Shown: positions 5,038 through 46,600 of the stretch, one piece after another
Layout: each line of letters opens with the position of its first letter
How positions within the stretch are numbered: position 1 is the first letter of the stretch
From: Planctomycetota bacterium
Lineage (GTDB): Bacteria > Planctomycetota > Planctomycetia > JALXBF01
Direction of reading: 5' to 3'
DNA length: 64,000 bases
NCBI GenBank assembly: GCA_026991575.1
Contig: JALXBF010000058.1
Span: 1 to 64,000, forward strand
Program-made: the position numbers and the translations under genes
The notes under the pieces: model-generated
The model's database searches: none
What the model was told of the DNA's origin: nothing
Seen by the model: the letters and a program-made list of their open reading frames with translations, nothing else

Positions 5038-7425
5038 ATGCGACCTGCGTCGGCAACACGGCCAGCCCGCGAGCACAGATTCCGATCCGCCGTCGGCCGC
5101 ATCCTGGCCCTTGTGACGCTGGTAGCAGCCGCGGCGCTGCCGGCAGCATTTTCCCTGGTGACACTCGCCCGGCCCGTCCCTCAGGCCGCGCAGGTTACCG
5201 GCCCGGTGACCGCGCAGCAGGTGCGGCGCGCGATCGCTCGTGGCCAGCGGTACCTGAAGCAGGAGCAAGGCCCGGACGGGGCGTGGGCAGGAACCAACCC
5301 GGTCGCCACCCAGGGCATCAGCGCTCTGGCGACCCTGGCGCTGTTGGAGTCCGGGCTTGGGCCAGACGATCCGGCCGTGCGACGCGCGCTGGCGTTCCTG
5401 CGTAGTTTCGATCCGACGCAGCCGAGTCAGTGGCGCACGTACATTACCAGCCTGCACACGATGGCCTTGCAAGCGGCCGGTCAGCTTGATCGCGACCTGC
5501 CGTTAATCCAGCGGAACGCGCGGGTGCTGGAAATGATGCAGGTGCCCAGCGGTGGCCCGGAATCAGGGGCTTGGGGCTACGGCATCGGCGGTACCCGTTG
5601 GGATAACTCCAACACGCAGTACGCGGTACTGGGCTTGCACGCGGCCGCTCAGGCGGGCGTGCCGATCGAACCGCGCGTCTGGCTCCGCGTCCGCAATCAC
5701 TTTCTCGCCTACCAGGGACGCGACGGGGCCTGGGGCTACCAGGGGTCGAGTCGTGGCACCGGTTCGATGACCGTAGCAGGCATTGCGTCGTTGGTCATCG
5801 CTGGCATGGAGCTTGAACAGACCGAAGAGAAGCTCGTCAACGGACAGATTGTCGGCTGCGGCCGAGTCCGTGAACCGGAGCCGCTCCGGCGGGCGATCGA
5901 CTGGCTCGGTAGGAACACAGGCATCAGCATCGACCAGCGGGGCCGAGTCGTGCGGATCACAAACCCGCGCGCAGCCAGCTGGACGTTCTACTACCTGTAC
6001 GGCCTGGAGCGAGCCGGTCGGCTCACCGGCCGCCGCTACTTTGGCAAACACGACTGGTATCGCGAGGGCGCGGAATGGCTTGTGAAAGTGCAGGACCCGG
6101 TCAGCGGCGCCTGGCACGGCGGTGGCCTGGAACGTCCGGTGATTGCCACCAGTTTTGCGTTGCTGTTCTTGTCGAAAGGTCTCGCGCCGGTACTCATCAA
6201 CAAGCTGCGGTACGGCGTTCCGGGGAACCTGGCCGGGGGCGATTGGAACAATGATCCCCACGACGTTCGCCAGCTCACGGCCCACGTCGCCCGCCTCTGG
6301 AAGCATCGTCTCAACTGGCAGATCGTCGACATTTCCCGTGCCAGTGTTGCCGACCTGCTGCAGGCACCGATTGTCTTCTTCAACGGGCATCACCAGCCGC
6401 GGTTCCAGCAGGATGAGATCGAGAAGCTGCGGGAGTTCGTTCTGCAGGGCGGCTTCATCTTTGCCGAAGCGTGCTGCTCCAGCGAACAGTTCGACACGGG
6501 CTTTCGTGACCTGATCAAGGAGCTCTTCCCTGAGGCACCGCTTCGGCCACTGCCGCCGGACCATCCGGTCTGGCGTGCCCAGTACCCGCTGGAGCCGGAT
6601 GGATCGCTTTGGGGGGTAGACATCGGCTGCCGCACCAGCATCATCTATAGCCCCCACGACCTGTCCTGCTATTGGCAGAACCCATCCTGGCCAGCGTCGC
6701 TGCGTCCGATCAAGCTTGGCGTCAACGTGGTGGCGTACGCGACCGGTCGAGAGATCCCCCCGGACAAGCTCAGCGTTCGCGCTCCAGTCAAGTTGACCGA
6801 AACCGACCCTGCGGCACGAGACACGCTACGCATCGGCAAGCTTCGGCACGGAGGCGACTGGAACGCCGCCCCTCTGGCCATTCCAAACCTCATGGTTCAT
6901 CTGCGGAACGAGTTCGGTTTCCGCGTGCAGCTACGGCACGAGCCGATCGGACCGCTCGATCCGAACCTCTACCGCTTCCCGTTTCTGTACATGCATGGTC
7001 GCAACCGGTTTCGGTACGCGGAAGACGAGGTACGCAACCTGCGCAGCCTGCTGCTCCGCGGCGCGACCCTGTTTGCCGATGCCTGCTGCGGCAGCGAGCC
7101 GTTCGATGAGGCGTTCCGCGCGTTTGCACGCCAGCTGTTCCCGGACAATCCCCTGGAACCGATACCGCTTGAGGATCCGCTGATTACCGGCGAATACGGT
7201 GGTTACGATCTACGCAAGGTACAGTACACGAGAGCGATGCCGCAGCGGACCGGACCGGTTGCTCTGGAAGGGATCCTGATCGACGATCGCTGGGTCGTCG
7301 TCTACTCGCGCTGGGACATCGGCTGCGCCCTGGAGCGGCATCAGGGCGCCGAGTGCCGCGGGTACACGCACGAGAGCGCCCTGCGGATCGCCACCAACGT
7401 GTTGCTGTACGCCTTGCTCCGGTAA
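5038..7425 (+). CDS. alpha/alpha-toroid protein with tandem DUF4159 domains
   Basis: A 795-residue envelope protein. Residues about 20-45 form a signal or membrane anchor. About 55-390 contain repeats like those of prenyltransferase/squalene-oxidase toroids (GPDGAWAGTNP, GAWGYGIGG, GRDGAWGYQGS, SGAWHGGG). The C-terminal half holds two DUF4159-like domains, at about 398-580 and 598-795. Both start from a GDWN box, and each carries an ACC-SE-FD motif (near residues 476 and 680), so one domain arose by duplication. DUF4159 proteins normally sit beside MoxR, DUF58 and VWA genes, as here. The MoxR gene follows after 43 bp. The start is ATG at 5038 behind GGAGGAG. The biochemical role is unknown; a structural or binding role in the periplasm is inferred. 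Confidence 0.88.
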   Translation: MRPASATRPAREHRFRSAVGRILALVTLVAAAALPAAFSLVTLARPVPQAAQVTGPVTAQQVRRAIARGQRYLKQEQGPDGAWAGTNPVATQGISALATLALLESGLGPDDPAVRRALAFLRSFDPTQPSQWRTYITSLHTMALQAAGQLDRDLPLIQRNARVLEMMQVPSGGPESGAWGYGIGGTRWDNSNTQYAVLGLHAAAQAGVPIEPRVWLRVRNHFLAYQGRDGAWGYQGSSRGTGSMTVAGIASLVIAGMELEQTEEKLVNGQIVGCGRVREPEPLRRAIDWLGRNTGISIDQRGRVVRITNPRAASWTFYYLYGLERAGRLTGRRYFGKHDWYREGAEWLVKVQDPVSGAWHGGGLERPVIATSFALLFLSKGLAPVLINKLRYGVPGNLAGGDWNNDPHDVRQLTAHVARLWKHRLNWQIVDISRASVADLLQAPIVFFNGHHQPRFQQDEIEKLREFVLQGGFIFAEACCSSEQFDTGFRDLIKELFPEAPLRPLPPDHPVWRAQYPLEPDGSLWGVDIGCRTSIIYSPHDLSCYWQNPSWPASLRPIKLGVNVVAYATGREIPPDKLSVRAPVKLTETDPAARDTLRIGKLRHGGDWNAAPLAIPNLMVHLRNEFGFRVQLRHEPIGPLDPNLYRFPFLYMHGRNRFRYAEDEVRNLRSLLLRGATLFADACCGSEPFDEAFRAFARQLFPDNPLEPIPLEDPLITGEYGGYDLRKVQYTRAMPQRTGPVALEGILIDDRWVVVYSRWDIGCALERHQGAECRGYTHESALRIATNVLLYALLR

Positions 7426-33274: not shown

Positions 33275-36046
33275 ATGACCGTTTCCGACGCGAGTAATCG
33301 AGGCGGCCCCCGGTGCCGCGTCGTGACATCTGCGCTCTGTGCCCTGGTTGCCGTGGTGGCCCTCGGGTCGAGTCTTCGTGCCGAAGAGCGTCACCTGCAG
33401 TTCCTGCAGCAACTCAAGGAGCGCTACCCGGACCTTGCGCTCGAGTACGCCCGACGACTGGACCAGCGGCGCAAGGAGTTGCCGCCTGAGGTCAGCTCCC
33501 AGCTCGACTTGGAGTACGCGGCCGTACTGATTGCCGCCAGCAGCACGCGGCCACTGGAGGAGGCCGAGGCGCTGTTGGAAGAAGCGGCGCAGCGGCTAAA
33601 CGACTTCATCGCCGCACACCAGGGTACCGTCGACGCGCTGCGGGCAGGCTACCAGTTGGGCCTGCTCTGGATGCAGCGTGGTCAGCACTATGCCTCCCGG
33701 GCACAGCGGCAGAGCCGGCCTGCCGCCGACCTCCTGCAACAGGCACGCAACGCCTTGCAGCAGGCGCGCAACACGTTACTGCAAGTTGCCGCGGACGCAC
33801 GCCGGCTGCTCCGCGACCGTGGCCAGCAGCGCAAGAGGCGGCGCAAGAGGGCTTCTTCGGACGAGGTGCTTATCCGCGGCATTGAGCAGTTCGCTCAACT
33901 GCAGGCCGCGTTGGCCCTCTACCACCAGGCGCTCACCTACGACAAGCGGCAGCGGCAGTTCAGCGAACTGCTGGAGAAAGCAAGCGAGGAGTTCGATCGG
34001 CTGTTTCAGCAGCACCGCCTGGAACTGACTCTTCCGGCCCGATTCGCCCATCTATGGCACGGCCGTTGCCTCCAGGAGCTCGGCCGGTACGACGACGCCA
34101 TCGACCTGTATGACGAAGTGCTCGTCTCCGAACCACCCAACGCACGCGCAATGAGCCCGGAAGAAGCCGAACTATACACTCAGGCGTACCTGTTCAGGCT
34201 CGAGTGCATGGAGGCACTCGGACAAGTGGAGGCAATCTTCACCGATCCGGTCTACAACATCGAGGACTGGCTCAAGACACATCGCGTCCTGGAAGGAACA
34301 CCCGAATATGCCGCCGTGCAGTTCTTCGCAGCACGGCTGTACATCGCGCAGGCCAAGCGGGAGCGGAACGCGTCCCGTCAGCAACAGGCATATCGCCGAG
34401 CCCTGGAGCTGCTCACCGCCGTCAGTCGCACGGCCAACCCACACCAGCTGGAGGCACTGCGGCTGCGCAGCGTGGTCGAGGTCCAGTTGCGCGGCCGCCA
34501 GGCGGAACCGCGCACGTGGGACGAGGCTGTGGCCCTGGCAGATCTGGCACTGGATTCGAAAAGTTGGGCCGAGGCAATCCGGCACTACGAGAAGGCTCTG
34601 ACCTTCCGGAAGCGACCGGAGAACCCGGTCCAGGTAGCGACGATCCTCTACAAGCTGGCCTTTGCGTACTACCAGGCGAACCAACCACAGAAAGCAGCGG
34701 ACGTTGCCTTGCGGGTGCTCCGAGACTTCCCGGACAGTCCTGTCGCCCGGGACGCAGCCAATCTTGCGCTGTACGGCTACTACGTCGCGCTTCGCTCCGC
34801 CGCGGGGTCGCAACAGGGCACGCGTCTGGCAGAAGAGCTGCTGGAGCTCTGTGCCCAGGTTGAGAAGCTCTGGACGGATGAGCCGGTGGCGGATGTGGCA
34901 CGCCGGTTTGAAGGGCTGGTGCTCTGGTACCGGGGTGATTACGAACGGGCAGCAGAAGCGTTCGCACGTGTCACGAAGCAATCGCCGGATTACGCCGACA
35001 GCATGGTCAAGGCCGGCAAGGCCCTTTGGACGGCGTACACGTCGCAGCGGAGCCAGCTCTCCGAAGAGCAGGCCCGCCGGCTGCTCGAACAGACGCTTCG
35101 CTTCGTGGACGCGGGTATCCAGGCTGCGCAGGACGATCGCGTCCGGATTGAGGGCATGCTGGCCAAGGTCGACGTGCTCCTGCAGATGCAACGGTTGGCG
35201 GATGCCAAGAAGGTTGCCGCTGCCGCGTTGGATCTGGTCAGGCGGACCACCGATCCTGCCGCGCTGGCGTACCGGCTGACGGCGTACACGGTTGCCCTGC
35301 AACTTGCCTCGCAGACCGGCGACGTGGAAACGGTGCACACCCTGGTGAACGAACTGGCCACCGCTGCCCAGAGCGGTACGGCGAATGTCAGCCCCGAGGT
35401 GCTGGTCTATGTGATCGCGCAGCTGGCGAAGCAGGTCGGTAAGCTGACAGAGCCGCGACAGAAACAGCAGCTGGAGCAGACACTGCAGGACCTGTTGAAG
35501 CTCGTGGACACAGAAGCGCTCCAGGACGACCGCTCGCGCGAGCACATTGCCGAGGCTTACTTTGCACTCGGGGACTACGCGCAAGCATTAGCCTTGTACA
35601 ACGCCCTGCTCACGAATGCCCCGCCACAGCGGGCGTGGCATTATCGGGCACGGCTGGCGCGATGCTACGTGGCGCTGGGGCGGTATGAGGAAGCGTACCG
35701 GCTGATGAGCGAGGCAATTGCCCAGTACGAACGGGCCGGCAAGACGGCACCTCTGGTGCTGCTGCTCGAGCGAGCCAAGGCGCTGCATCACTGGGCGGAG
35801 CAGGAACCGTCGCACTGGCGCCGCGCCTACCGCGAATGGGCACAGCTGTACAACTCGCTGGTGCGCCGATTGCCGCGGCCGCGGGAGTTCTACGAGGTGA
35901 CCTATTACCTCGGCGTCACGCTGAAGAATCTCAACCGCACACAGGAGGCAAAGCGACTGGTCCAGCGCACCCTGCGCGCAAGCCGCACGTGCGGAGGCCC
36001 CGACCTGCGGGCCAAGCTGCAGAACCTGTTGGCCGAGCTGGACTAG
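33275..36046 (+). CDS. secreted TPR-repeat protein, 923 aa
   Basis: A large envelope protein. A signal-like hydrophobic segment (ALCALVAVVALG) precedes a long series of helical TPR-like repeats (patterns such as A..YEKAL..., A..Y..L..LP..., Y..LG..A...L). No enzyme motif is seen. TPR proteins of this kind scaffold complexes, comparable in position to YbgF/CpoB near Tol genes. The gene lies 53 bp upstream of the ExbB homologue on the same strand, and its stop at 36046 is followed by that gene's leader. The start is ATG at 33275. A TAGAAT (33189-33194) is a weak -10 candidate. Confidence 0.88.
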   Translation: MTVSDASNRGGPRCRVVTSALCALVAVVALGSSLRAEERHLQFLQQLKERYPDLALEYARRLDQRRKELPPEVSSQLDLEYAAVLIAASSTRPLEEAEALLEEAAQRLNDFIAAHQGTVDALRAGYQLGLLWMQRGQHYASRAQRQSRPAADLLQQARNALQQARNTLLQVAADARRLLRDRGQQRKRRRKRASSDEVLIRGIEQFAQLQAALALYHQALTYDKRQRQFSELLEKASEEFDRLFQQHRLELTLPARFAHLWHGRCLQELGRYDDAIDLYDEVLVSEPPNARAMSPEEAELYTQAYLFRLECMEALGQVEAIFTDPVYNIEDWLKTHRVLEGTPEYAAVQFFAARLYIAQAKRERNASRQQQAYRRALELLTAVSRTANPHQLEALRLRSVVEVQLRGRQAEPRTWDEAVALADLALDSKSWAEAIRHYEKALTFRKRPENPVQVATILYKLAFAYYQANQPQKAADVALRVLRDFPDSPVARDAANLALYGYYVALRSAAGSQQGTRLAEELLELCAQVEKLWTDEPVADVARRFEGLVLWYRGDYERAAEAFARVTKQSPDYADSMVKAGKALWTAYTSQRSQLSEEQARRLLEQTLRFVDAGIQAAQDDRVRIEGMLAKVDVLLQMQRLADAKKVAAAALDLVRRTTDPAALAYRLTAYTVALQLASQTGDVETVHTLVNELATAAQSGTANVSPEVLVYVIAQLAKQVGKLTEPRQKQQLEQTLQDLLKLVDTEALQDDRSREHIAEAYFALGDYAQALALYNALLTNAPPQRAWHYRARLARCYVALGRYEEAYRLMSEAIAQYERAGKTAPLVLLLERAKALHHWAEQEPSHWRRAYREWAQLYNSLVRRLPRPREFYEVTYYLGVTLKNLNRTQEAKRLVQRTLRASRTCGGPDLRAKLQNLLAELD

Positions 36047-36099: not shown

Positions 36100-36963
36100 A
36101 TGAGAGTGTCATCGATGGTAATGCCGCAACGATCCCGCTCGCTGCGCTACACCGTCTTCCTGCTACTCAGCATCGGTTACGCAACGTGCGTCCTGCCCGC
36201 CCTTGCGCAGGACGAGAAAAAGGCTGCGGCTACAGAGGACACCGGCGAACCGATCACGCAAGAAAGCGTTTTGGAGTGGATCTACCGGGCGGAGGGTGGT
36301 TTCTTCTGGCCCCAGCTGGCCATCTCCATCGCGCTGGTGGCCTTGATCGTAACCAATTCGCTAGCCCTGGTCCGGTCCCGTTTCGTACCGGATTCGCTGG
36401 TTGCCGAGTTCGATCGACTGGTGAAGGAACGGAAGTATGCCGATGCGTTCGAGCTGGTCCGCAACGACCCGTCGCTGCTTGCCCAGGTGGTGACGGCCGG
36501 TCTGATGCGGTTGCCCGACGGCTACAGCGAGGCAATTGAGGCGATGCAGGAAGTGGCCGAGGAAGAGACGATGAAGCATGAGCACCGCCTGAGTTACCTT
36601 GCGATGCTCGGCAACATCGCGACCATGGTTGGGCTGCTCGGCACCGTCTGGGGTATGGTTCGCAGTTTCCGGACGATTGCCATCAGCGACGTGACGCCGA
36701 AGCCCAGCGAGCTCGCTCAGGGTGTTTCCCAGGCGCTGGTGACCACGATTGGCGGTCTGATGCAGGCAATTCCGGCGATCTTTTTCTTCACGATCCTGAA
36801 GAACCTTCTGGCCCGCCGCGTGCTGGAGGTCGGCATTCGGAGCGAACAGATGATGCTGCGGTTCAAGGGCGTCTCCGTCCAGCGTAAAGCGACCGGGCAG
36901 CGGCCTTCGGCGCCGCAGCAAGCGAAAGCGGCCGGCGAACAAGGCGGCAAGGGCGCCAGCTGA
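36100..36963 (+). CDS. exbB: MotA/TolQ/ExbB proton-channel family protein
   Basis: An inner-membrane proton channel subunit that energises a periplasmic or outer-membrane machine. The protein starts with a signal-like region (LRYTVFLLLSIGYATCVLPALAQDEKK), then a helix ISIALVALIVTNSLAL, the TolQ/ExbB core with MLGNIATMVGLLGTVWGMVRSF and ALVTTIGGLMQAIPAIFFFTILK, and a cationic Pro/Gln/Lys tail. The leader before the first helix is unusual for ExbB, though signal peptides on ExbB are known. The start is ambiguous between ATG 36100 and GTG 36106, because GGAGGT (36092-36097) is better spaced for the GTG. It is followed by two ExbD genes. Confidence 0.92.
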   Translation: MRVSSMVMPQRSRSLRYTVFLLLSIGYATCVLPALAQDEKKAAATEDTGEPITQESVLEWIYRAEGGFFWPQLAISIALVALIVTNSLALVRSRFVPDSLVAEFDRLVKERKYADAFELVRNDPSLLAQVVTAGLMRLPDGYSEAIEAMQEVAEEETMKHEHRLSYLAMLGNIATMVGLLGTVWGMVRSFRTIAISDVTPKPSELAQGVSQALVTTIGGLMQAIPAIFFFTILKNLLARRVLEVGIRSEQMMLRFKGVSVQRKATGQRPSAPQQAKAAGEQGGKGAS

Positions 36964-36981
36964 TCGGGGAGGCCAACGGTC

Positions 36982-37458
36982 ATGCGGACCCGAGAAGCCA
37001 GGTACGCGATCCCCGAGCTGGACATGACGCCGATGATCGATATGACGTTCCAGCTTATCGCGTTCTTCATGTTCGTGATGAACTTCAGCACGGAGCTGGT
37101 GCGCGAAGAGATCCAGCTGCCCGTCGTTCAGCTCGCACAGCCAGTGACGCAGAGCAAGGTAGAGCCCATCGTGCTCAACGTTGACTCGGACGGTTCTGTC
37201 TACCTGCCCGGCGAAGTGATCAATGTCATGACACCCGACGGTCTCGCGCAGCTGAACTCGTTCCTGTACCGGGAGGCAGCGCTGGCCCGGTTGCGTATGC
37301 GTGCCGCCGGCCTGCCACCCGACTCGCCGCTCAACTCCACCGTCATCATCCGCGGCGATCGGGCAACACCGTTCGATGTGATTCGCAAGGTGCTGCGCTC
37401 CTGCCGCGAAGCCGGCTTCGTGCATTACTCGCTGCGTGCCGAGACTCGCGCACAGTGA
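36982..37458 (+). CDS. exbD: ExbD/TolR family protein 1
   Basis: A 158-residue single-helix subunit of the ExbB/ExbD proton-powered motor. The helix contains the required Asp in the TPMIDMTFQLIAFFMFVMNF segment, and the periplasmic domain carries VLNVDSDGSVYL and STVIIRGDR, typical of ExbD. The start ATG at 36982 follows GGGGAGG. It is spaced 18 bp after ExbB and 39 bp before the second ExbD and is clearly in one operon. Confidence 0.95.
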   Translation: MRTREARYAIPELDMTPMIDMTFQLIAFFMFVMNFSTELVREEIQLPVVQLAQPVTQSKVEPIVLNVDSDGSVYLPGEVINVMTPDGLAQLNSFLYREAALARLRMRAAGLPPDSPLNSTVIIRGDRATPFDVIRKVLRSCREAGFVHYSLRAETRAQ

Positions 37459-37497
37459 TTGCTCGCACCAGAGAACAGGGCCGCGAGGAAGCCGACG

Positions 37498-37950
37498 ATG
37501 CGCGTCCGCCGTATCGGACATGATGAGACACGAGTCGAGCTGCAGATGACGCCGATGATCGACGTCGTCTTCCAGCTGCTGATCTTCTTCCTGTTCACGT
37601 TCAAGATCCGGCCTATCGAGGGTGAGATCGCCGTCACGATGCCACCACCGGAAGCCGGGCAGGCACAACAGTCGGAAGAGATCACCGTCGCCGATCGCAT
37701 CCACATCAAGCTGCAAGCAGGTGCCGGCGGTCAACTGGCGAACATCCTGGTCGAGGAACAGGCTGTCGGCACAGATCTGGCCGCCCTGGGTCGGGTGCTG
37801 CGCGAACTGGCCGGGAACCCGCCACCAGAAGACCTCGAAGCAGAAATCGATGCTGACGGCAGGCTCTTGTACGGACACGTGATCCAGGTGGCAACGGTGG
37901 TGATGCGCAGCGGGATTGCGAAAGTGCGCTTTACCGACCCAGGCGGCTAA
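37498..37950 (+). CDS. exbD: ExbD/TolR family protein 2
   Basis: A second, diverged ExbD/TolR subunit of 150 residues, with its helix QMTPMIDVVFQLLIFFLFTF containing the proton-path Asp, and a periplasmic part with INIKL-like and IDADGRLLYGHV strands. It differs clearly from the first ExbD, so the pair is not a recent duplicate; one could pair with a different partner. ATG at 37498 is chosen because GAGGAA lies upstream, whereas the longer frame starts TTG right after the previous stop. Its stop (TAA 37948-37950) overlaps the stop of the convergent gene by 3 bases. Confidence 0.93.
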   Translation: MRVRRIGHDETRVELQMTPMIDVVFQLLIFFLFTFKIRPIEGEIAVTMPPPEAGQAQQSEEITVADRIHIKLQAGAGGQLANILVEEQAVGTDLAALGRVLRELAGNPPPEDLEAEIDADGRLLYGHVIQVATVVMRSGIAKVRFTDPGG

Positions 37951-38897
37951 GGAGCGCTGTCCTCCTGCGGGCTGGCGTCTGCTTGTTTCGCTCCGCCCTG
38001 TCGCTCGCTGCGCTCGTCCTCCGCGCCAAAGTCCACCCCCCCTGCATCGGCGCGGGCTCCTGGAACAGTCTCCGGGCCCGACGCTCTGCGCGACACCCAG
38101 TAGACCACAGCCAGGCCTGCCAGGATCAGCACGGCCAACACCGCGCCGACCACCCCCTCCAGACGCTGCACGTCCTGCTGCTCGGCCACGGGTGACGGAG
38201 CCGGCAGCAGTTGCGGCGTGACGACGATCGGCGAACTGAGCAGACGGCCATCGGCAGTCTCATGCTTCCACCATCCCAGGAAAACTCCCACCACACGACA
38301 GTACTCATTCAGGCGTCGGGCCACCGGCAGGGCGGCTGGCCGGCGTACCGAGATGACACAGTAGGGCAGATGCCCGCTGTCGGCTGTAAACACCCATGCT
38401 TCAAAGTACGGCTCCCCGGAGCCAGGCCCGGGCGGCACTGGCACGATGCGGCGCACGCGGCCACGAAAGGTGAGCACCCGGCCACGAAACCGTTCCGGAT
38501 CCTCGAAGAGCGCGCGATAGGTGAAGCGTTTCACCGCCAGCTGTTCCAATCGCTGCACCCGAACATCCCGGAGCAACTTCACCAGGTACAGGAACGGCTC
38601 CGGGGTTATCTCCCGGGCGTGATCCTGATAAGTTGCCAGTAGCGACAGGTCTATGACCAGCTCCTCTGACCGTCCGCCGTGCGCCTCTGACTCACTCGAA
38701 CCTGCGTCAACTTGCTGCATCAGACCGCTCGCCATCCCTGCCTCCTGGCGCCGCAGCCGGGCCGCTTCCTCGCGCAGTGCCACCATCATTGCCACGGCTA
38801 CGGCCAGGAGTAAGACCAGCGGCAGAATGGACGGAGTCACCGGCTTGCGCGCGCCACGCTGCCAGGCCGGTTCGAAAGGCATACGTCTCGGTCGCAT
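37947..38897 (-). CDS. membrane protein with OB-like domain, 316 aa
   Basis: A predicted inner-membrane protein of unrecognised family. One N-terminal helix (TPSILPLVLLLAVAVAMMVAL), a soluble domain with a beta-rich segment FRGRVLTFRGRVRRIVPV..YFEAWVFTADS..LPYCVISVRR that looks like an OB fold, and a C-terminal helix (GVVGAVLAVLILAGLAVVYWV) followed by a charged tail. ATG at 38895-38897 is used; the longer frame to 39152 is a basic artefact. It lies 31 bp downstream of the TonB-like toroid gene on the same strand, suggesting one operon. It converges with ExbD2. Confidence 0.8.
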   Translation of the reverse strand: MRPRRMPFEPAWQRGARKPVTPSILPLVLLLAVAVAMMVALREEAARLRRQEAGMASGLMQQVDAGSSESEAHGGRSEELVIDLSLLATYQDHAREITPEPFLYLVKLLRDVRVQRLEQLAVKRFTYRALFEDPERFRGRVLTFRGRVRRIVPVPPGPGSGEPYFEAWVFTADSGHLPYCVISVRRPAALPVARRLNEYCRVVGVFLGWWKHETADGRLLSSPIVVTPQLLPAPSPVAEQQDVQRLEGVVGAVLAVLILAGLAVVYWVSRRASGPETVPGARADAGGVDFGAEDERSERQGGAKQADASPQEDSAP

Positions 38898-38928
38898 CGG
38901 AAGTCCTGTCGCAGTGGTGCCGGGCCGC

Positions 38929-40614
38929 TTAGCCCTGGCTCTTCTTGCTGCGGCGTTTGCGGGACGGAGCAGATTTCTTACGAGCTGGCTTGCCCTTCTT
39001 GTTGCGGCCGCCCTGGTCGTCACGCACGGCGCCGCTCCCTTCCTTATCTGTGCTGTCGCCCCTTTCGGTAGTAGGTTCCGACTCCGCCTGCTTCTTACCC
39101 CCCTTGTCTGCCTGCGGCATTTGCTCGGGTCGGTCCGGTTCCGCTTCGGCAACCGTGTACAGTGGCAGGTAGCGGTAATAGACTTCCAGCGTTAACAGCC
39201 CGACGCAGGTAACGAAATGTCGACCGCCAGCTTCCCCCCAGCGGTCCGAGTCCGGATCCCAGCTTCCGAACTGACAGGCCTTACGATCGCGGTTCTGGGT
39301 ACGTACCCAGATCCGTCGCATCAGCCGGTTCCAGCGGTCCCATTCTGGCCCCTGGAAGTTATGCACAACCTGTGTTGCGTAGTACCAGTAGTAGGAGTCT
39401 CGGCGGCGTGAAGCGGGGTTAGGCAGGTTCTTCATCAGGTAGTCGATTCCTTCGATGATGGCCGGGTCTGAACGCCCTGCGCCCAGATACTGCAGACACA
39501 GGAGTCCAACCGCCGTCATCGACGGAGTCGGCTGGCCACCCGGCATGTACGCGAACAGACCGCCGTGTTTTCCCCGCGAAGCCGACTTCAGATAGTGGTG
39601 CACTCCCAGCAGGGTCTTGGCCGGAACTTGTAGGCCGCCCATTTGACCGCTCTTGATGCCCATGACCTGCCAGCCGACTACTGACGTGTCGGCATCCTGC
39701 GAATTCGGCGTGTATCGCCAGCCTCCCAGAGCGTTTTGCACAGAGGCCAGGAAGTTGATGGCCTTCTGGGCAGCGGCTCCCAGTCGGGGGTCGCGCGTGA
39801 GTGCGTAGGCTTCCGATACGGCAATCGTCGCCAGACCATGCGTGTACATGGGCTGGGCATGATTCTTGACGTGGAACAGGCCGTTAGGCTGCTGATGCTG
39901 AAGGATCCACGTCAGGGCACGGCCCACAACAGCTCGATGCGGGCCGGAGCGGTGGGTGTAGTTGGCAGCGAGGAATGGCAGGACTCCCAGGGCCGTGGCA
40001 GCCATATCGGACCGCACGTTACCGGCTCCGGGGCACCCGTCCCCACGGCAGCGACGGCGGTGGTCCAAGCTCCAGTGTCCATCCGGAAACTGATGGCGCA
40101 CTAGCCAGTCCAGCCCCGCCTGCACGGCGACCTCGGTTAACTTGGTGCCGCCCTGGCTGCCCAGCATCGCGCGCCGCATGCCCTCGCCGCGACCGGAGAA
40201 CGTTGAACCCGGCCCGCGGGCGGCCAGTCCACTGGGCCCGGGCCCCTCAAGGGCCGAAGCGATGTTATCCAGCGGCGGCAGTTCCATGGGCGACAGCGGC
40301 GCGGGCGGTGCCACCTCGGGTGGTGCGGGTGCGACCGCTGCGGCTGCGGCCATGTCGGGCTGCTCCACCTCCGGCATTTCCGGAGGTTCCAGTGGCAGCG
40401 GCTCCAGCGGGATCTCCTCAAGGGGAATGTCCTCAGGGATCTCGGTGAGCTGGCTCTCCAGGGACGCTTCGGCCGGCTTGGGCCTGGGGCTGATGGTGAC
40501 CGTCATCATGACGAAGAGGAATACGGTATGCACGACCAGGCTGACCAGCCAGCCAGGAATCACCTGATCCCGCCACCAGTCCCGAGCCCGCTTGAACAGG
40601 TCCGCTGCGCTCAC
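38929..40614 (-). CDS. TonB-like anchored alpha/alpha-toroid protein
   Basis: A 561-residue inner-membrane protein. The N-terminal helix reads GWLVSLVVHTVFLFVMM with a Ser25-x3-His29 spacing, the same SxxxH pattern that TonB and TolA use to couple to ExbB/ExbD. A Pro/Glu-rich linker (about 45-125: IPLEEIPLEPLPLEPPEMPEV) follows, as in TonB. The rest (about 165-470) is an alpha/alpha-toroid of the prenyltransferase/squalene-oxidase type with repeats such as GHWSLDHR, NALGGWRY, HGGLFAYMPGG, LLCLQYLG and WRLM-type helices; the tail is Lys-rich. The start is GTG at 40612-40614 after GGGGGC. It converges with exbB-exbD-exbD, its probable partners. A TonB C-terminal domain is absent. Confidence 0.85.
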   Translation of the reverse strand: MSAADLFKRARDWWRDQVIPGWLVSLVVHTVFLFVMMTVTISPRPKPAEASLESQLTEIPEDIPLEEIPLEPLPLEPPEMPEVEQPDMAAAAAVAPAPPEVAPPAPLSPMELPPLDNIASALEGPGPSGLAARGPGSTFSGRGEGMRRAMLGSQGGTKLTEVAVQAGLDWLVRHQFPDGHWSLDHRRRCRGDGCPGAGNVRSDMAATALGVLPFLAANYTHRSGPHRAVVGRALTWILQHQQPNGLFHVKNHAQPMYTHGLATIAVSEAYALTRDPRLGAAAQKAINFLASVQNALGGWRYTPNSQDADTSVVGWQVMGIKSGQMGGLQVPAKTLLGVHHYLKSASRGKHGGLFAYMPGGQPTPSMTAVGLLCLQYLGAGRSDPAIIEGIDYLMKNLPNPASRRRDSYYWYYATQVVHNFQGPEWDRWNRLMRRIWVRTQNRDRKACQFGSWDPDSDRWGEAGGRHFVTCVGLLTLEVYYRYLPLYTVAEAEPDRPEQMPQADKGGKKQAESEPTTERGDSTDKEGSGAVRDDQGGRNKKGKPARKKSAPSRKRRSKKSQG

Positions 40615-42802: not shown

Positions 42803-45800
42803 CTACTTTTGACCCGACAGGCTACGGCTGTATGCTTCGATCAGCTCGCGGTACTCCGGTGGCGGCGGCGTGCGCGAGACGTCCAACGCACCTTCATCGT
42901 CACTGACCACCGCCTGCGGCCCGCTGATCAGCCGCCGGCGACCCGGACCGATCCGAGCCACATCACCGGCCTTGCGCTTCCGTCGCTCCTGCTGAGCCTT
43001 GAGGTACTTGACGAACCTCTTCAAGTCCTCTTTCGTCCAGCCGAGACGCCGCAGCAGTTCCGGATCCACCCGGTCTCGGCGGAGCATATCCTCCAGTTTG
43101 GTCAGTACCAGTTCCGTGGCCTGCTTTGCAGCCTGCGAGACCCGCTCCGGCTCCTCCTGCTCACCCTCATCTCCGGCCCCGCCGCCGGCTCCTGGCCGCC
43201 GCGACGGCCCGCCACCGAACTGGCCCTGGCCTTTGTCGGGTCCAAACCCTTTCTGCGGCTGCCCCCCCGGCGCAGCTCCGGCGCCGCCGCCCACGGACGC
43301 GTTGCCCGTGGTGCCACCGGCACCGCCTGGTTGCGCACCACCCGCAGAGCCCTGCTGCCCACCAGTGCCGGCGCCACCACTCTGGCCGCTCCGCGGACCA
43401 CCCTGTCCACCCGGTTTCCCGCCCTGGGCTGCACCGGGCTGCCCGACTCCGTCACGCTGGGCTGCGCCGCGGCCCGTGCCACCTTGACCGGCACCCTGCT
43501 TGCTCCCACCGGAGGAGCCGCCCTGGTCACCGGCCTGACCGCCACCACCTTGACCACGGCCGCCGCTCTGTTGGCCCTGGCCAGCGCCGGAAGCTCCTTG
43601 GCCCTGCCCGCCAGCGGCTGACTGCTGTTGCGAGGAACTGCCACCCGAACGCCCGGCCGGCTGGCCGCCAGCCCCCCCTTGAGACCGGCTCCCCGGGGCG
43701 CCACCGGAGGACGGGGCCATCCGATCCTGCCCACCTCCATCCGCCCCCGGGGACGACTCGCCCTGGCCCTCAGGCTGAGCGGCTTGGCGCTGCTGCGCGC
43801 CGCCGTCCTTCTGCGTTTGGTCGCCGCCAGCAGCCTGACCACGCTCCTGACCGGTCCCCTCCTGCCCGGTGGGTGTACCGGTCTGTTGACGGCCCGATCC
43901 CCGGTCCTGACCGGCAGGCGGCGGCGTTTGGCCGTTGTTGCCGGCCTGGCCCTGGTCGGTGGTGCCCGGCTGCTGCGCCCCGCCCGGCTCACCGTCCTGG
44001 CCCGGCTTACGCGCACCACTCAGCCCGAGCCCTTCCGGCAAGTTTGTTGCCTGCTGACCCTGACCGGGCTGGCCCAACTCTCGGGCACTCTCCTCAGCAC
44101 CTCCCTGCTGCGTCTCGCCTGCGCTGGACTCCGGTCCGCTGGCCTGTTTCGATCCCTGGCCACCGTCACCCGCCGCATTGTTCTGGCGCTGCTGCGGTTG
44201 GCGGTCATCGCCTGCAGGCTGGCCCCTGCGATCGCCCTGCTGATCCCCTTTCCCACCAGCACCTTCCTCACCCTGCTGGCCGCGATCGTTCGCGTTCTGT
44301 GGCGCCCCGCTTGCCTCCTGTCGCTCCTCGCCCTGAGGCTTCCGCCCCGGGGTGCGGGCGTCGTCGCGCTGCTGCTGCGAGTCGTTCGCGCCGGCAGCGG
44401 CACCGGATTGCTGGCCGGCCTCTCCCTCTTGATCCGAGTCACCTGCCTGCTGGCCCTGGTCCCCCTGCTCGCCCTCTTGCTGGTCGCCGGGCTGCTGCTG
44501 AGGTTTGTCTGGTCGAGCAGCGTCACGAGTTTCGCCGCTGCGTCCGGCATCGTCGCTGGGCCGATCGCCAGCAGCCATGCCGTCTTCGCCGGTCGTCGAA
44601 GCTTCCGCGTCTCGGTCTCCCCGGCCCTGGTCGCCCTGTCGCTCGTCGCCGTGGCCGGATTCGGCCTCGGATTGTTCGGGCCGTTGGTCAGCGTCGTCCG
44701 CTTCAGTTTCCCGCTGGGCAGCGGCCTGTTCCTCGAGAAAGCGTTCGATTTCCCGGAGAGCCTGTTCAGGGTCTTCGATGCGTTGCTCCGTCCGCTCCTC
44801 ACCTTGCTCGGCCAGTTGCTGCTGGTCGTCTGCTGCCCCCTGCTCTTCGGGCTGGTTAGCCTGGCCGGGGCCGTCACGCTGCTGGTCGTCATGGGTCTGT
44901 CCGGACTCACGTTGGATGCGCTCGGCCTCCTGTTGCTGCAACTCCGTGGCCTCGCGGCGCCGGCCGATTCTGACGCGGAACTTGCCGCTCTTGCTTCGCT
45001 GAGGCATCGGCCGCCTGTTGTCCGTTGCCTCTGCCCAGTAACGGATCTCGTCGCCGGCTTTCAGTCCGTAGCGCTCGGGGTCGAATTCGAACAGGAACGT
45101 GCCCTCGGTTCGTCGCTCGGCGAGGCCGTCATAGAGTGTCTCGGTGCGTTTGGAACCGCGAGGCAACTCGATGACAAGCTCAACCAGGCGAAGCCCGAAA
45201 TCGTCACGAGCCTGGACCACGATGGGTAGGTGACGGTTCTCCGGAAGGGGAGGGTCGATGATGTCGTGACCGGGTTCATCGATGCGGACCTCGGGCATCT
45301 GATCTGGACGGCAGCGGATCTGGTAGACGGGGGGATTTGGATTGCTTTCACCGCTTTCCAAGACGAACCAGATGCGGTACACGTCGTCTTGTTCTACGGT
45401 GAAGGCGGTTGAGACGCGCGTGGGATCGCCCACGAGCCGATGCATCGTCAACCGCTGCCGTTTGTCCTTGCCCAGAATCAGCTCGGCTCGGGCCGCTGGT
45501 CCGGGTAGTTTGGCGGTAACCGTCACCCGTGTTCCTTGGGGGGCATCGATGTCGGGAACATCGGACACAATCGGATCGCGTCCGGTGTACTCCGGGAACT
45601 CGTAGCGCACCCGGATCGCTTCGATCACCGGGACGGGCAGCACGGTAAACTGGTACAGCTTCGTCTTGCAGTCCCCTCCGACCAGGTAGTAACTGAATGA
45701 CTTCTCCACCTGGGGCAGTTTCACCCACCATGGGTCGAAGGAGTTCTCGGGCCGGTTCAGCTCGACCTGGCGCCACCGCTGGCCGTCATCGGACCAGAAC

Positions 45801-46522
45801 AGCACGACCCGTTCGGGGATATATCCTTCGACCATTGCCGAGATGGTGACGTCGCTACCGGCCACCGCCTTGCTGCGGTCCGGATCATCGCCGGGATCGA
45901 CATCCACGATTCTGGTTCGCGTCGGGTAGGCGATCTCGGCCCAGGGTACGAGCACCCGCCCAAGCGAAGCCAGCACGGACCGCTGCAACCAGATGCTGTT
46001 GATCAGCAGCCCGATGCAGCAGGCGATCACAGCCGCAGCGAACAGGTACCAGGCGTGCAAGAGTCGCTCGGCCCCCAACCGCTGCTGCACCGGGATTTCC
46101 AGCAGCACGCGTACGACACGGTCCTCTACCAGCGGCCGCGCCAGCCTTGCGTTGGGATCGTCCGCGTGCTCCTCCAGGTCAAAGACCGTGGTCACGCCGT
46201 CTTCGAGCTCGGGCACGACCCGGTCGATAAGCCGAGCCACGTACCAGCGGTTGATACGCCGTACCAGGGGCCGAATCACGCCAAAGTAGCTGTACGTAGC
46301 GCCGACGGCCACGGCCGCGACAAGCATCAGGGTCCGGGTTACCGGAGAGAGATCGAGCAGGTGGTCGAGCGCGATGACAGCGAGGACGTAAAAGAGTGCG
46401 CCGGCGAAGAGCCGCAGCAGGGCAACGCCGATGTCCTCAGAACGCAGTTTCCGCGCCACTTGACGCGCGCAGATCGCGATGTACTCGCCGTAGGTCAAAG
46501 ACTCGTGTGTTGCCAGGCTCAT
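42803..46522 (-). CDS. giant DUF4175-type membrane protein with Q/G-rich tract
   Basis: A 1239-residue protein. The N-terminus has two membrane helices (FAGALFYVLAVIALDHLL and LMLVAAVAVGATYSYF), then a third near residue 160, and a beta-rich ectodomain (PEYTGRDPI..DIDAPQGTRVTV), as in DUF4175 proteins of MoxR clusters. From about residue 540 to 1120 the protein is low-complexity, rich in Gln, Gly, Pro, Asp and Glu (short GQ, GGQ and QQ runs). A basic/helical C-terminus follows (RVSQAAKQATELVLTKLEDMLRR..LLRRLGWTKEDLKRFVKYL). ATG at 46520-46522 follows AGGAG. Function is unknown; the tract could be a disordered spacer in the cell wall or periplasm. Confidence 0.88.
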   Translation of the reverse strand: MSLATHESLTYGEYIAICARQVARKLRSEDIGVALLRLFAGALFYVLAVIALDHLLDLSPVTRTLMLVAAVAVGATYSYFGVIRPLVRRINRWYVARLIDRVVPELEDGVTTVFDLEEHADDPNARLARPLVEDRVVRVLLEIPVQQRLGAERLLHAWYLFAAAVIACCIGLLINSIWLQRSVLASLGRVLVPWAEIAYPTRTRIVDVDPGDDPDRSKAVAGSDVTISAMVEGYIPERVVLFWSDDGQRWRQVELNRPENSFDPWWVKLPQVEKSFSYYLVGGDCKTKLYQFTVLPVPVIEAIRVRYEFPEYTGRDPIVSDVPDIDAPQGTRVTVTAKLPGPAARAELILGKDKRQRLTMHRLVGDPTRVSTAFTVEQDDVYRIWFVLESGESNPNPPVYQIRCRPDQMPEVRIDEPGHDIIDPPLPENRHLPIVVQARDDFGLRLVELVIELPRGSKRTETLYDGLAERRTEGTFLFEFDPERYGLKAGDEIRYWAEATDNRRPMPQRSKSGKFRVRIGRRREATELQQQEAERIQRESGQTHDDQQRDGPGQANQPEEQGAADDQQQLAEQGEERTEQRIEDPEQALREIERFLEEQAAAQRETEADDADQRPEQSEAESGHGDERQGDQGRGDRDAEASTTGEDGMAAGDRPSDDAGRSGETRDAARPDKPQQQPGDQQEGEQGDQGQQAGDSDQEGEAGQQSGAAAGANDSQQQRDDARTPGRKPQGEERQEASGAPQNANDRGQQGEEGAGGKGDQQGDRRGQPAGDDRQPQQRQNNAAGDGGQGSKQASGPESSAGETQQGGAEESARELGQPGQGQQATNLPEGLGLSGARKPGQDGEPGGAQQPGTTDQGQAGNNGQTPPPAGQDRGSGRQQTGTPTGQEGTGQERGQAAGGDQTQKDGGAQQRQAAQPEGQGESSPGADGGGQDRMAPSSGGAPGSRSQGGAGGQPAGRSGGSSSQQQSAAGGQGQGASGAGQGQQSGGRGQGGGGQAGDQGGSSGGSKQGAGQGGTGRGAAQRDGVGQPGAAQGGKPGGQGGPRSGQSGGAGTGGQQGSAGGAQPGGAGGTTGNASVGGGAGAAPGGQPQKGFGPDKGQGQFGGGPSRRPGAGGGAGDEGEQEEPERVSQAAKQATELVLTKLEDMLRRDRVDPELLRRLGWTKEDLKRFVKYLKAQQERRKRKAGDVARIGPGRRRLISGPQAVVSDDEGALDVSRTPPPPEYRELIEAYSRSLSGQK
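43150..44940 (-). repeat. low-complexity Gln/Gly-rich coding repeat
   Basis: This is the part of the DUF4175 gene that encodes the long tract of short GQ-, QQ- and GG-containing units. The high GC in all frames opens long antisense frames, which are shadows. The repeat is imperfect; no unit longer than a few residues recurs exactly. Confidence 0.7.
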
Positions 46523-46571
46523 GGACTTGCCACTCCTGCGGCGTTGCCTCCAACCTCCCCGTGCCCAATCT

Positions 46572-46600
46572 ATTGTGGCATAGTTGCACCCCCGGGACAA
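46572..46600 (-). promoter_or_regulatory. candidate promoter of the DUF4175 gene
   Basis: On the minus strand, TTGTCC (46595-46600) and CACAAT (46572-46577) are 17 bases apart. Each hexamer matches consensus at 4 of 6 positions, so this is a moderate candidate. Confidence 0.4.

Follow-up and report, generated by a model that had tools for sequence, protein, structure and literature searches.

What is a protein that ends in a squalene cyclase-type toroid doing next to a proton-driven membrane motor? This question is raised by a 64,000-nucleotide stretch of DNA from a Planctomycetota bacterium (positions 1 to 64,000 of the forward strand of contig JALXBF010000058.1, assembly GCA_026991575.1; referred to here as the window), which is contig C58 of a 4.96-Mb genome, the sole representative of its order among the genomes compared. 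The window encodes a membrane-anchored toroid protein whose gene faces those for one ExbB-type and two different ExbD-type motor subunits. It appears probable that these genes specify a trans-envelope module driven by the proton motive force (PMF), in which the toroid protein serves as the ExbB/ExbD transducer and its toroid replaces the C-terminal domain of TonB or TolA. A proton-driven envelope machine with a toroid as its working end had been proposed in an earlier note on this DNA, and the proposal is supported by the anchor motif and by conserved operons, from which we infer docking on ExbB and transmission of force.

The toroid protein (561 aa, GTG start) is encoded on the minus strand at 38929-40614. 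The earlier note had read it as a single membrane helix with a Ser-x3-His pair (S25 and H29), followed by a Pro/Glu-rich linker and by a toroid in place of the TonB C-terminal domain, and all three features are borne out. The helix spans residues 21 to 40 (40495-40554) in the AlphaFold2 (AF2) model. The linker (residues 45 to 152; 40159-40482) contains 23 Pro and 15 Glu in 108 residues and has predicted local distance difference test (pLDDT) values below 50 at residues 45 to 65 and 69 to 137. The alpha/alpha-toroid domain (residues 153 to 484; 39163-40158) is modeled with pLDDT above 90 over most of its length. The protein matches SQHop_cyclase_C (PF13243) at 40.6 bits (cut-off, 26.1), and a profile search of the PDB with the toroid finds squalene-hopene cyclase (2.5e-14), while the Pfam search revealed no TonB_C match in it at E values up to 1. 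Structural matches found by Foldseek include AprG, the class II terpene cyclase MstE, squalene-hopene cyclases, GH76 mannanases, AGE-type epimerases, the GGTase beta subunit, and C3 (E values of 2e-6 to 4e-4 over the set, and of about 1e-6 to 1e-5 in the domain assignment, which cites AprG, MstE, squalene-hopene cyclases, and GH76). In a motif scan, the window toroid showed four QW-type repeats and no DxDD catalytic acid motif; any D-x-D-D string is found in only 14 of the 158 toroid family members. The protein ends in a disordered, Lys/Arg-rich tail of 77 residues (residues 485 to 561; 38932-39162), delineated by low pLDDT, alignment, and comparison of termini. This basic tail is far longer than in most aligned homologs, and the other toroids of the first operon type described below are shown without such length.

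The Ser-x3-His pair is the best-preserved feature of the anchor. Lack of this motif in homologs, which the earlier note would have counted against its proposal, is not what was found: all 25 toroids of an alignment made irrespective of the motif have H29, at least 90% of them have S25, and these two positions are the most conserved columns of an otherwise variable helix. Among distinct toroid proteins with a transmembrane (TM) segment and a linker, 139 of 150 anchors carry S-x3-H, compared with 35 of 2,044 other predicted TM segments from the same loci (1.7%); the Fisher value for this difference overstates the independence of the data, because the sequences are related, whereas the contrast with neighboring columns is unaffected by kinship. 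The difference from the control helices rules out S-x3-H as a generic feature of TM segments. In the second half of the SHLS motif, which has Leu 11 and Ser 15 positions after the first Ser, the window protein has M36 and T40; of 66 anchors, 40 show Leu and 9 show Met in the +11 column, and the +15 column is not conserved. This half of the motif is weakly conserved in Ton systems as well (PMC12215075). Apart from the type I cases discussed below, the anchors that deviate from S-x3-H are those of L147 (Ala for Ser), L208 (Asn for Ser), and L191 (Asn for His), and the N-termini of the L023 and L070 toroids and of the second L043 toroid resemble signal peptides rather than anchors.

The same anchor evidence would serve equally well if the toroid protein docked on ExbB through Ser-x3-His and transmitted no force, acting instead as a regulator, sensor, scaffold, or positioning device that reads a periplasmic ligand and gates the proton channel. 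Many aromatic and polar residues are invariant in the toroids of the 25 aligned homologs, as is typical of a ligand pocket, and the work of the published relatives that end in a vWA domain is likewise unknown (PMC12204202). Nevertheless, the disordered, Pro/Glu-rich linkers, 88 to 1,200 residues long across the family, are more easily reconciled with spanning the periplasm than with local gating, and this is an unlikely explanation, if the least unlikely of those that compete with force transmission.

The gene neighborhood provides the second line of evidence. In the window, two units converge: TPR-exbB-exbD1-exbD2 on the plus strand, and the toroid gene followed by a gene for an OB-fold protein on the minus strand. 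The former is headed, as the earlier note had it, by the gene for a secreted TPR protein of 923 aa (33275-36046; TPR families by Pfam). The ExbB/TolQ-type subunit (36100-36963; PF01618, 94 bits) starts with an ATG at 36100 that has GGAGG ahead of it, and is followed by the ExbD/TolR-type subunit 1, ExbD1 (36982-37458; PF02472, 72 bits; TM motif LDMTPMIDMTFQLIAFF), and the distinct subunit 2, ExbD2 (37498-37950; PF02472, 66 bits; TM motif LQMTPMIDVVFQLLIFF), both of which have the conserved Asp in the TM segment. The earlier note correctly had the exbB gene and the two exbD genes converge on the toroid gene, but the latter does not abut exbD2: between them lies a previously unnoticed gene (37947-38897, minus strand), the second of the toroid transcription unit, which encodes a protein that has two TM segments and an OB-fold domain in the periplasm. 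In its AF2 model, a five-stranded OB-type barrel is flanked by two TM segments, and the Foldseek matches are OB folds, mostly of the SSB type (best E value, 6e-4). A scan of this DNA for promoters and terminators produced no more sites than were found in shuffled sequences.

Elsewhere in the phylum, these genes form two types of conserved operons. In type I, exbB, exbD, exbD, the OB gene, and the toroid gene follow one another on a single strand (L143, L144 [the same as L119], L146, L149, L197, L204, and L207). In L143 and L144, a TPR gene is found behind the toroid gene, which brings together the full set of six families seen in the window. TPR homologs also adjoin toroids in L043 and L126 (genomes G087 and G409, respectively), where toroid and TPR are kept side by side, and are found upstream of exbB-exbD-exbD in many genomes of the class. 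Homologs of the OB protein adjoin exbB-exbD-exbD in contig C130 of the genome to which the window belongs, and are also found within type I operons; the OB protein is near exbB-exbD-exbD in every locus where it was found except L142, a count that is not unbiased because toroid, exbB, and TPR matches had guided the choice of loci. L142, which carries the sister of the window toroid, retains the toroid and the OB protein.

In type II operons, exbB and exbD precede a long toroid gene (L041, L048, L058/L189, L145, L147, L150, L156, L158, L194, L211, and L220), and exbD-toroid pairs are found in L044, L060, and L184. In L044 and L060, the tested open reading frames upstream of exbD had no Pfam match and exbB was not identified. 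The long toroid proteins comprise 740 to 1,750 aa, and the motif is located in the helix preceding the long linker: S-x3-H is present there in all inspected type II and exbD-toroid cases except L147, which has A-x3-H. A TPR gene is found ahead of the type II motor in L041, L048, and L058. The first of these is contig C109 of the genome to which the window belongs, which therefore carries a second, fully codirectional TPR-exbB-exbD-toroid operon. Some long toroid proteins (L058/L189 and L194) also contain a TolB-like PD40 propeller; in L058, it is inserted between the first TM segment and the Ser-x3-His helix, so that propeller, motor anchor, and toroid are found in a single chain.

The earlier note would also have held it against its proposal if the toroid gene were never near exbB and exbD in related genomes, which is not the case. 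An exbD gene is located directly upstream (at most 1.7 kb, same strand) of 17 of the 68 named toroid genes, where chance would give about 0.1, as estimated from 11 ExbD genes in 4.96 Mb. The window toroid belongs to a clade of eight (Shimodaira-Hasegawa-like approximate likelihood ratio test [SH-aLRT], 99), every member of which has OB, TPR, or exb neighbors. A chance neighborhood is rejected on the grounds of both conserved operon types and of the support for the toroid clade.

The same observations bear on the possibility that the toroid is an enzyme of the periplasm, tethered to the membrane and either similar to isoprenoid cyclases or active on glycans, to which the Ser-x3-His motif and the motor genes nearby are incidental. 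Terpene cyclases, AprG, GH76 mannanase, and epimerases have matching folds, some relatives of the toroid are secreted toroids with no anchor (L023, L067, and L070), and many anchored toroids are encoded away from exbB and exbD. However, S-x3-H is far more frequent in toroid anchors than in control helices, two separate operon types join toroid and motor, and the window toroid lacks the DxDD acid of the cyclases, on which ground an active cyclase is rejected. A tethered enzyme to which motif and motor are incidental is improbable.

Several observations weigh against the transducer assignment itself. Most of the single-TM toroids in the phylum, often encoded as tandem pairs, have neither exbB nor exbD within ~9 kb. 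The position of the anchor His is occupied by Asn in two toroids of type I (L204 and L207), and in L119/L144 the anchor Ser is replaced by Ala; the Ser is retained wherever His is replaced by Asn (L191, L204, and L207), and L204 and L207 belong to exbB-exbD-exbD-OB-toroid operons. No correlation of this His loss with the TM1 residues of ExbB in L204 and L207 was seen by eye. We know of no ligand, outer membrane partner, or phenotype.

ExbB supplies the most serious objection to the view that docking simply copies that of TonB. In the cryo-electron microscopy structure from Escherichia coli, Ser16 and His20 of TonB touch Ser34 and Trp38 of ExbB, and Trp38 packs against Pro190 (PMC12215075). The window ExbB retains GLLGT (with the equivalent of T148), ALVTT (T181), and the equivalent of Pro190, the last being found in TM3 of 50 of the 52 aligned ExbBs, E. 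coli included. In contrast, the equivalents of Ser34 and Trp38 are missing from the window ExbB and not conserved among its relatives, given an uncertain alignment of TM1; Asn, Arg, or other residues take the place of Ser34, and Leu, Ala, Val, or other residues take that of Trp38. Either TM1 is misaligned or docking proceeds through other residues; since Ser34 and Trp38 are missing, docking chemistry identical to that of E. coli is not supported.

The phylogeny of ExbB adds a further point against the assignment. The window ExbB, relatives of which are present in all 149 genomes of the class, falls into a class-wide TPR-exbB-exbD-exbD clade, and the ExbBs of the type I operons form its sister clade. 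Strict orthology of the whole module is therefore unsupported, and the histories of motor and transducer appear to be partly separate. Together with the paralogous exbB-exbD-exbD of contig C130, which has an OB gene of its own, and with the OB genes found near other such motors, this grouping suggests that motors and transducers are partly interchangeable. In L103, L104, L097, and other loci of the class, a TPR gene, a gene for a second TPR protein of ~360 aa, exbB, exbD, and exbD are found with no transducer adjoining.

That the toroid protein is a real transducer for another motor, such as that of C130 or C109, and that its convergence with an adjoining housekeeping motor common to the class is a chance rearrangement would agree with the position of the window ExbB among class-wide motors, with the OB gene of the C130 paralog, and with the opposite strands of toroid and motor genes in the window, but all six families of the window are found together in L119/L144 and L143, and toroid and TPR are adjacent in G087 and G409, which makes this the least probable of the explanations weighed here.

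If the toroid protein is indeed a transducer of the adjoining motor, the module could work as follows. An ExbB oligomer and the ExbD1/ExbD2 pair would form the motor, powered by the PMF. The single helix of the toroid protein, predicted to be oriented N-in and C-out, would dock on the outside of ExbB via its Ser-x3-His face, similarly to TonB and TolA. The disordered Pro/Glu-rich linker of ~110 residues would span the periplasm, and the noncyclase toroid would grip its target, be it a ligand or a partner, in the outer periplasm, the peptidoglycan, or the outer membrane. The recurring accessories, namely the TPR protein and the membrane protein with the OB fold, would be its likeliest partners in the periplasm.

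The toroid is not the only domain that is found behind such an anchor. In the genome studied here, an anchor profile recognizes five proteins: the window toroid, the C109 toroid, one vWA protein at C147, and two at C162. At C147 (L083, 5790-9627), a vWA protein with an SLAVH anchor, a 348-aa protein, ExbB, and two ExbDs are encoded in a row, as in the published vWA type; at C162 (L139 and L140), the two vWA proteins, each with a Ser-x3-His anchor, are encoded next to each other. The profile finds a match in 107 of the 149 class genomes, and the 29 best-scoring anchor loci examined included 25 toroids and at least 2 vWA proteins. Two other proteins, L242 (1351-2286) and L247 (1-1881), combine a Ser-x3-His anchor with no toroid match (L242 had no Pfam match either) and are possibly further working ends. 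Another toroid fusion is encoded in the window at 5038-7425 (plus strand), a DUF4159 protein with weak squalene cyclase-type toroid matches in its N-terminal half. Of the 149 class genomes, 23 gave TonB_C matches; the genome studied here gave none, although it has a single TonB-dependent receptor plug domain (G000:C186:3258-3587). The window also carries the gene for a DUF4175 membrane protein of 1,265 aa (42803-46600, minus strand) with a very long Gln/Gly-rich low-complexity stretch.

Because this arrangement recurs in operons of a phylum from which TonB is mostly missing, it may represent a new type of cell envelope machine. If so, the Ser-x3-His anchor would be a general plug that puts unrelated periplasmic domains (those of TonB and TolA, vWA domains, and toroids) on one type of proton motor, and Planctomycetota, with ExbB relatives in 149 and TonB_C in only 23 of the 149 class genomes, would possess a set of candidate PMF transducers. 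A previous examination of genomes of the phylum had located TonB in only four of them (PMC3422733), and the uptake of dextran into the enlarged periplasm of these bacteria is energy dependent and blocked by carbonyl cyanide m-chlorophenylhydrazone (CCCP), with an unclear mechanism (PMC5394234). An attractive though unlikely extension is that Planctomycetota swapped TonB for a family of transducers that end in a toroid or a vWA domain and share ExbB/ExbD motors, and that these transducers power work at the outer membrane, including the CCCP-sensitive uptake of large polymers, dextran among them. The toroid would then be a domain that grips polymers or receptors, and the length of the linker would fit a wide periplasm. 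A tie of the toroid module to dextran uptake is speculation. If the transducer reading is right, the named genes would make the driver of energy-dependent macromolecule uptake and of other envelope work testable by deletion.

The module resembles several known systems in part. It shares with TonB and TolA an N-in/C-out single helix with Ser-x3-His, an extended periplasmic linker (Pro-rich in TonB), a separate C-terminal domain, and, by the coupling proposed here, an ExbB/ExbD (TolQ/TolR) motor. It differs from them in lacking a TonB_C or TolA domain, in having two different ExbDs, in the absence of the Ser34 and Trp38 contact residues from ExbB, and in having no known TonB-dependent receptor in the operon. 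Judging by sequence, its motor belongs to the ExbB/ExbD 5:2 proton motor family, with MotA_ExbB and ExbD domains, the pore Thr residues, and the TM Asp. The Tol-Pal system (TolQRA-TolB-Pal-CpoB) likewise combines motor, transducer, and TPR protein in one cluster, and a TolB-like PD40 propeller is part of the long toroid transducers of L058/L189 and L194; in contrast to Tol-Pal, the toroid clusters have the toroid end domain and an extra OB-fold protein, and no Pal or separate TolB gene was noticed in those seen. With squalene-hopene and class II terpene cyclases, the window protein shares the alpha/alpha toroid, the QW-type repeats, and detectable sequence similarity, but it has only one toroid, is membrane anchored and predicted to be periplasmic, lacks DxDD, and is linked to proton motor genes.

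The closest known kind is that of the vWA proteins with an SHLS helix that are encoded beside TPR, tolQ-like, and paired tolR-like genes in bacteria of the Planctomycetes-Verrucomicrobia-Chlamydiae (PVC) group and were presented as force transducers of a new class (Williams-Jones et al. 2025, PMC12204202). They have in common with the toroid protein a single TM helix with the Ser and His of the SHLS type, a disordered linker of ~100 residues, and a C-terminal domain unrelated to those of TonB and TolA. The differences are that the C-terminal domain in the window is an alpha/alpha toroid rather than a vWA fold, that the toroid set includes an OB-fold membrane protein, and that there is a second toroid form with a two-TM anchor, one exbD, and, in some cases, a PD40 propeller. 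The text of that paper makes no mention of toroid, squalene, or prenyltransferase, and no description of ExbD combined with a toroid, squalene cyclase, or terpene cyclase was found in the literature, preprints and most subscription papers aside. The earlier note knew of no description of the combination, which appears to hold for the toroid-ended transducer but not for the principle, as non-TonB transducers with a TonB-type anchor had already been published for vWA. The toroid module is a member of this recently described kind, with a toroid replacing the vWA domain, rather than a categorically new system.

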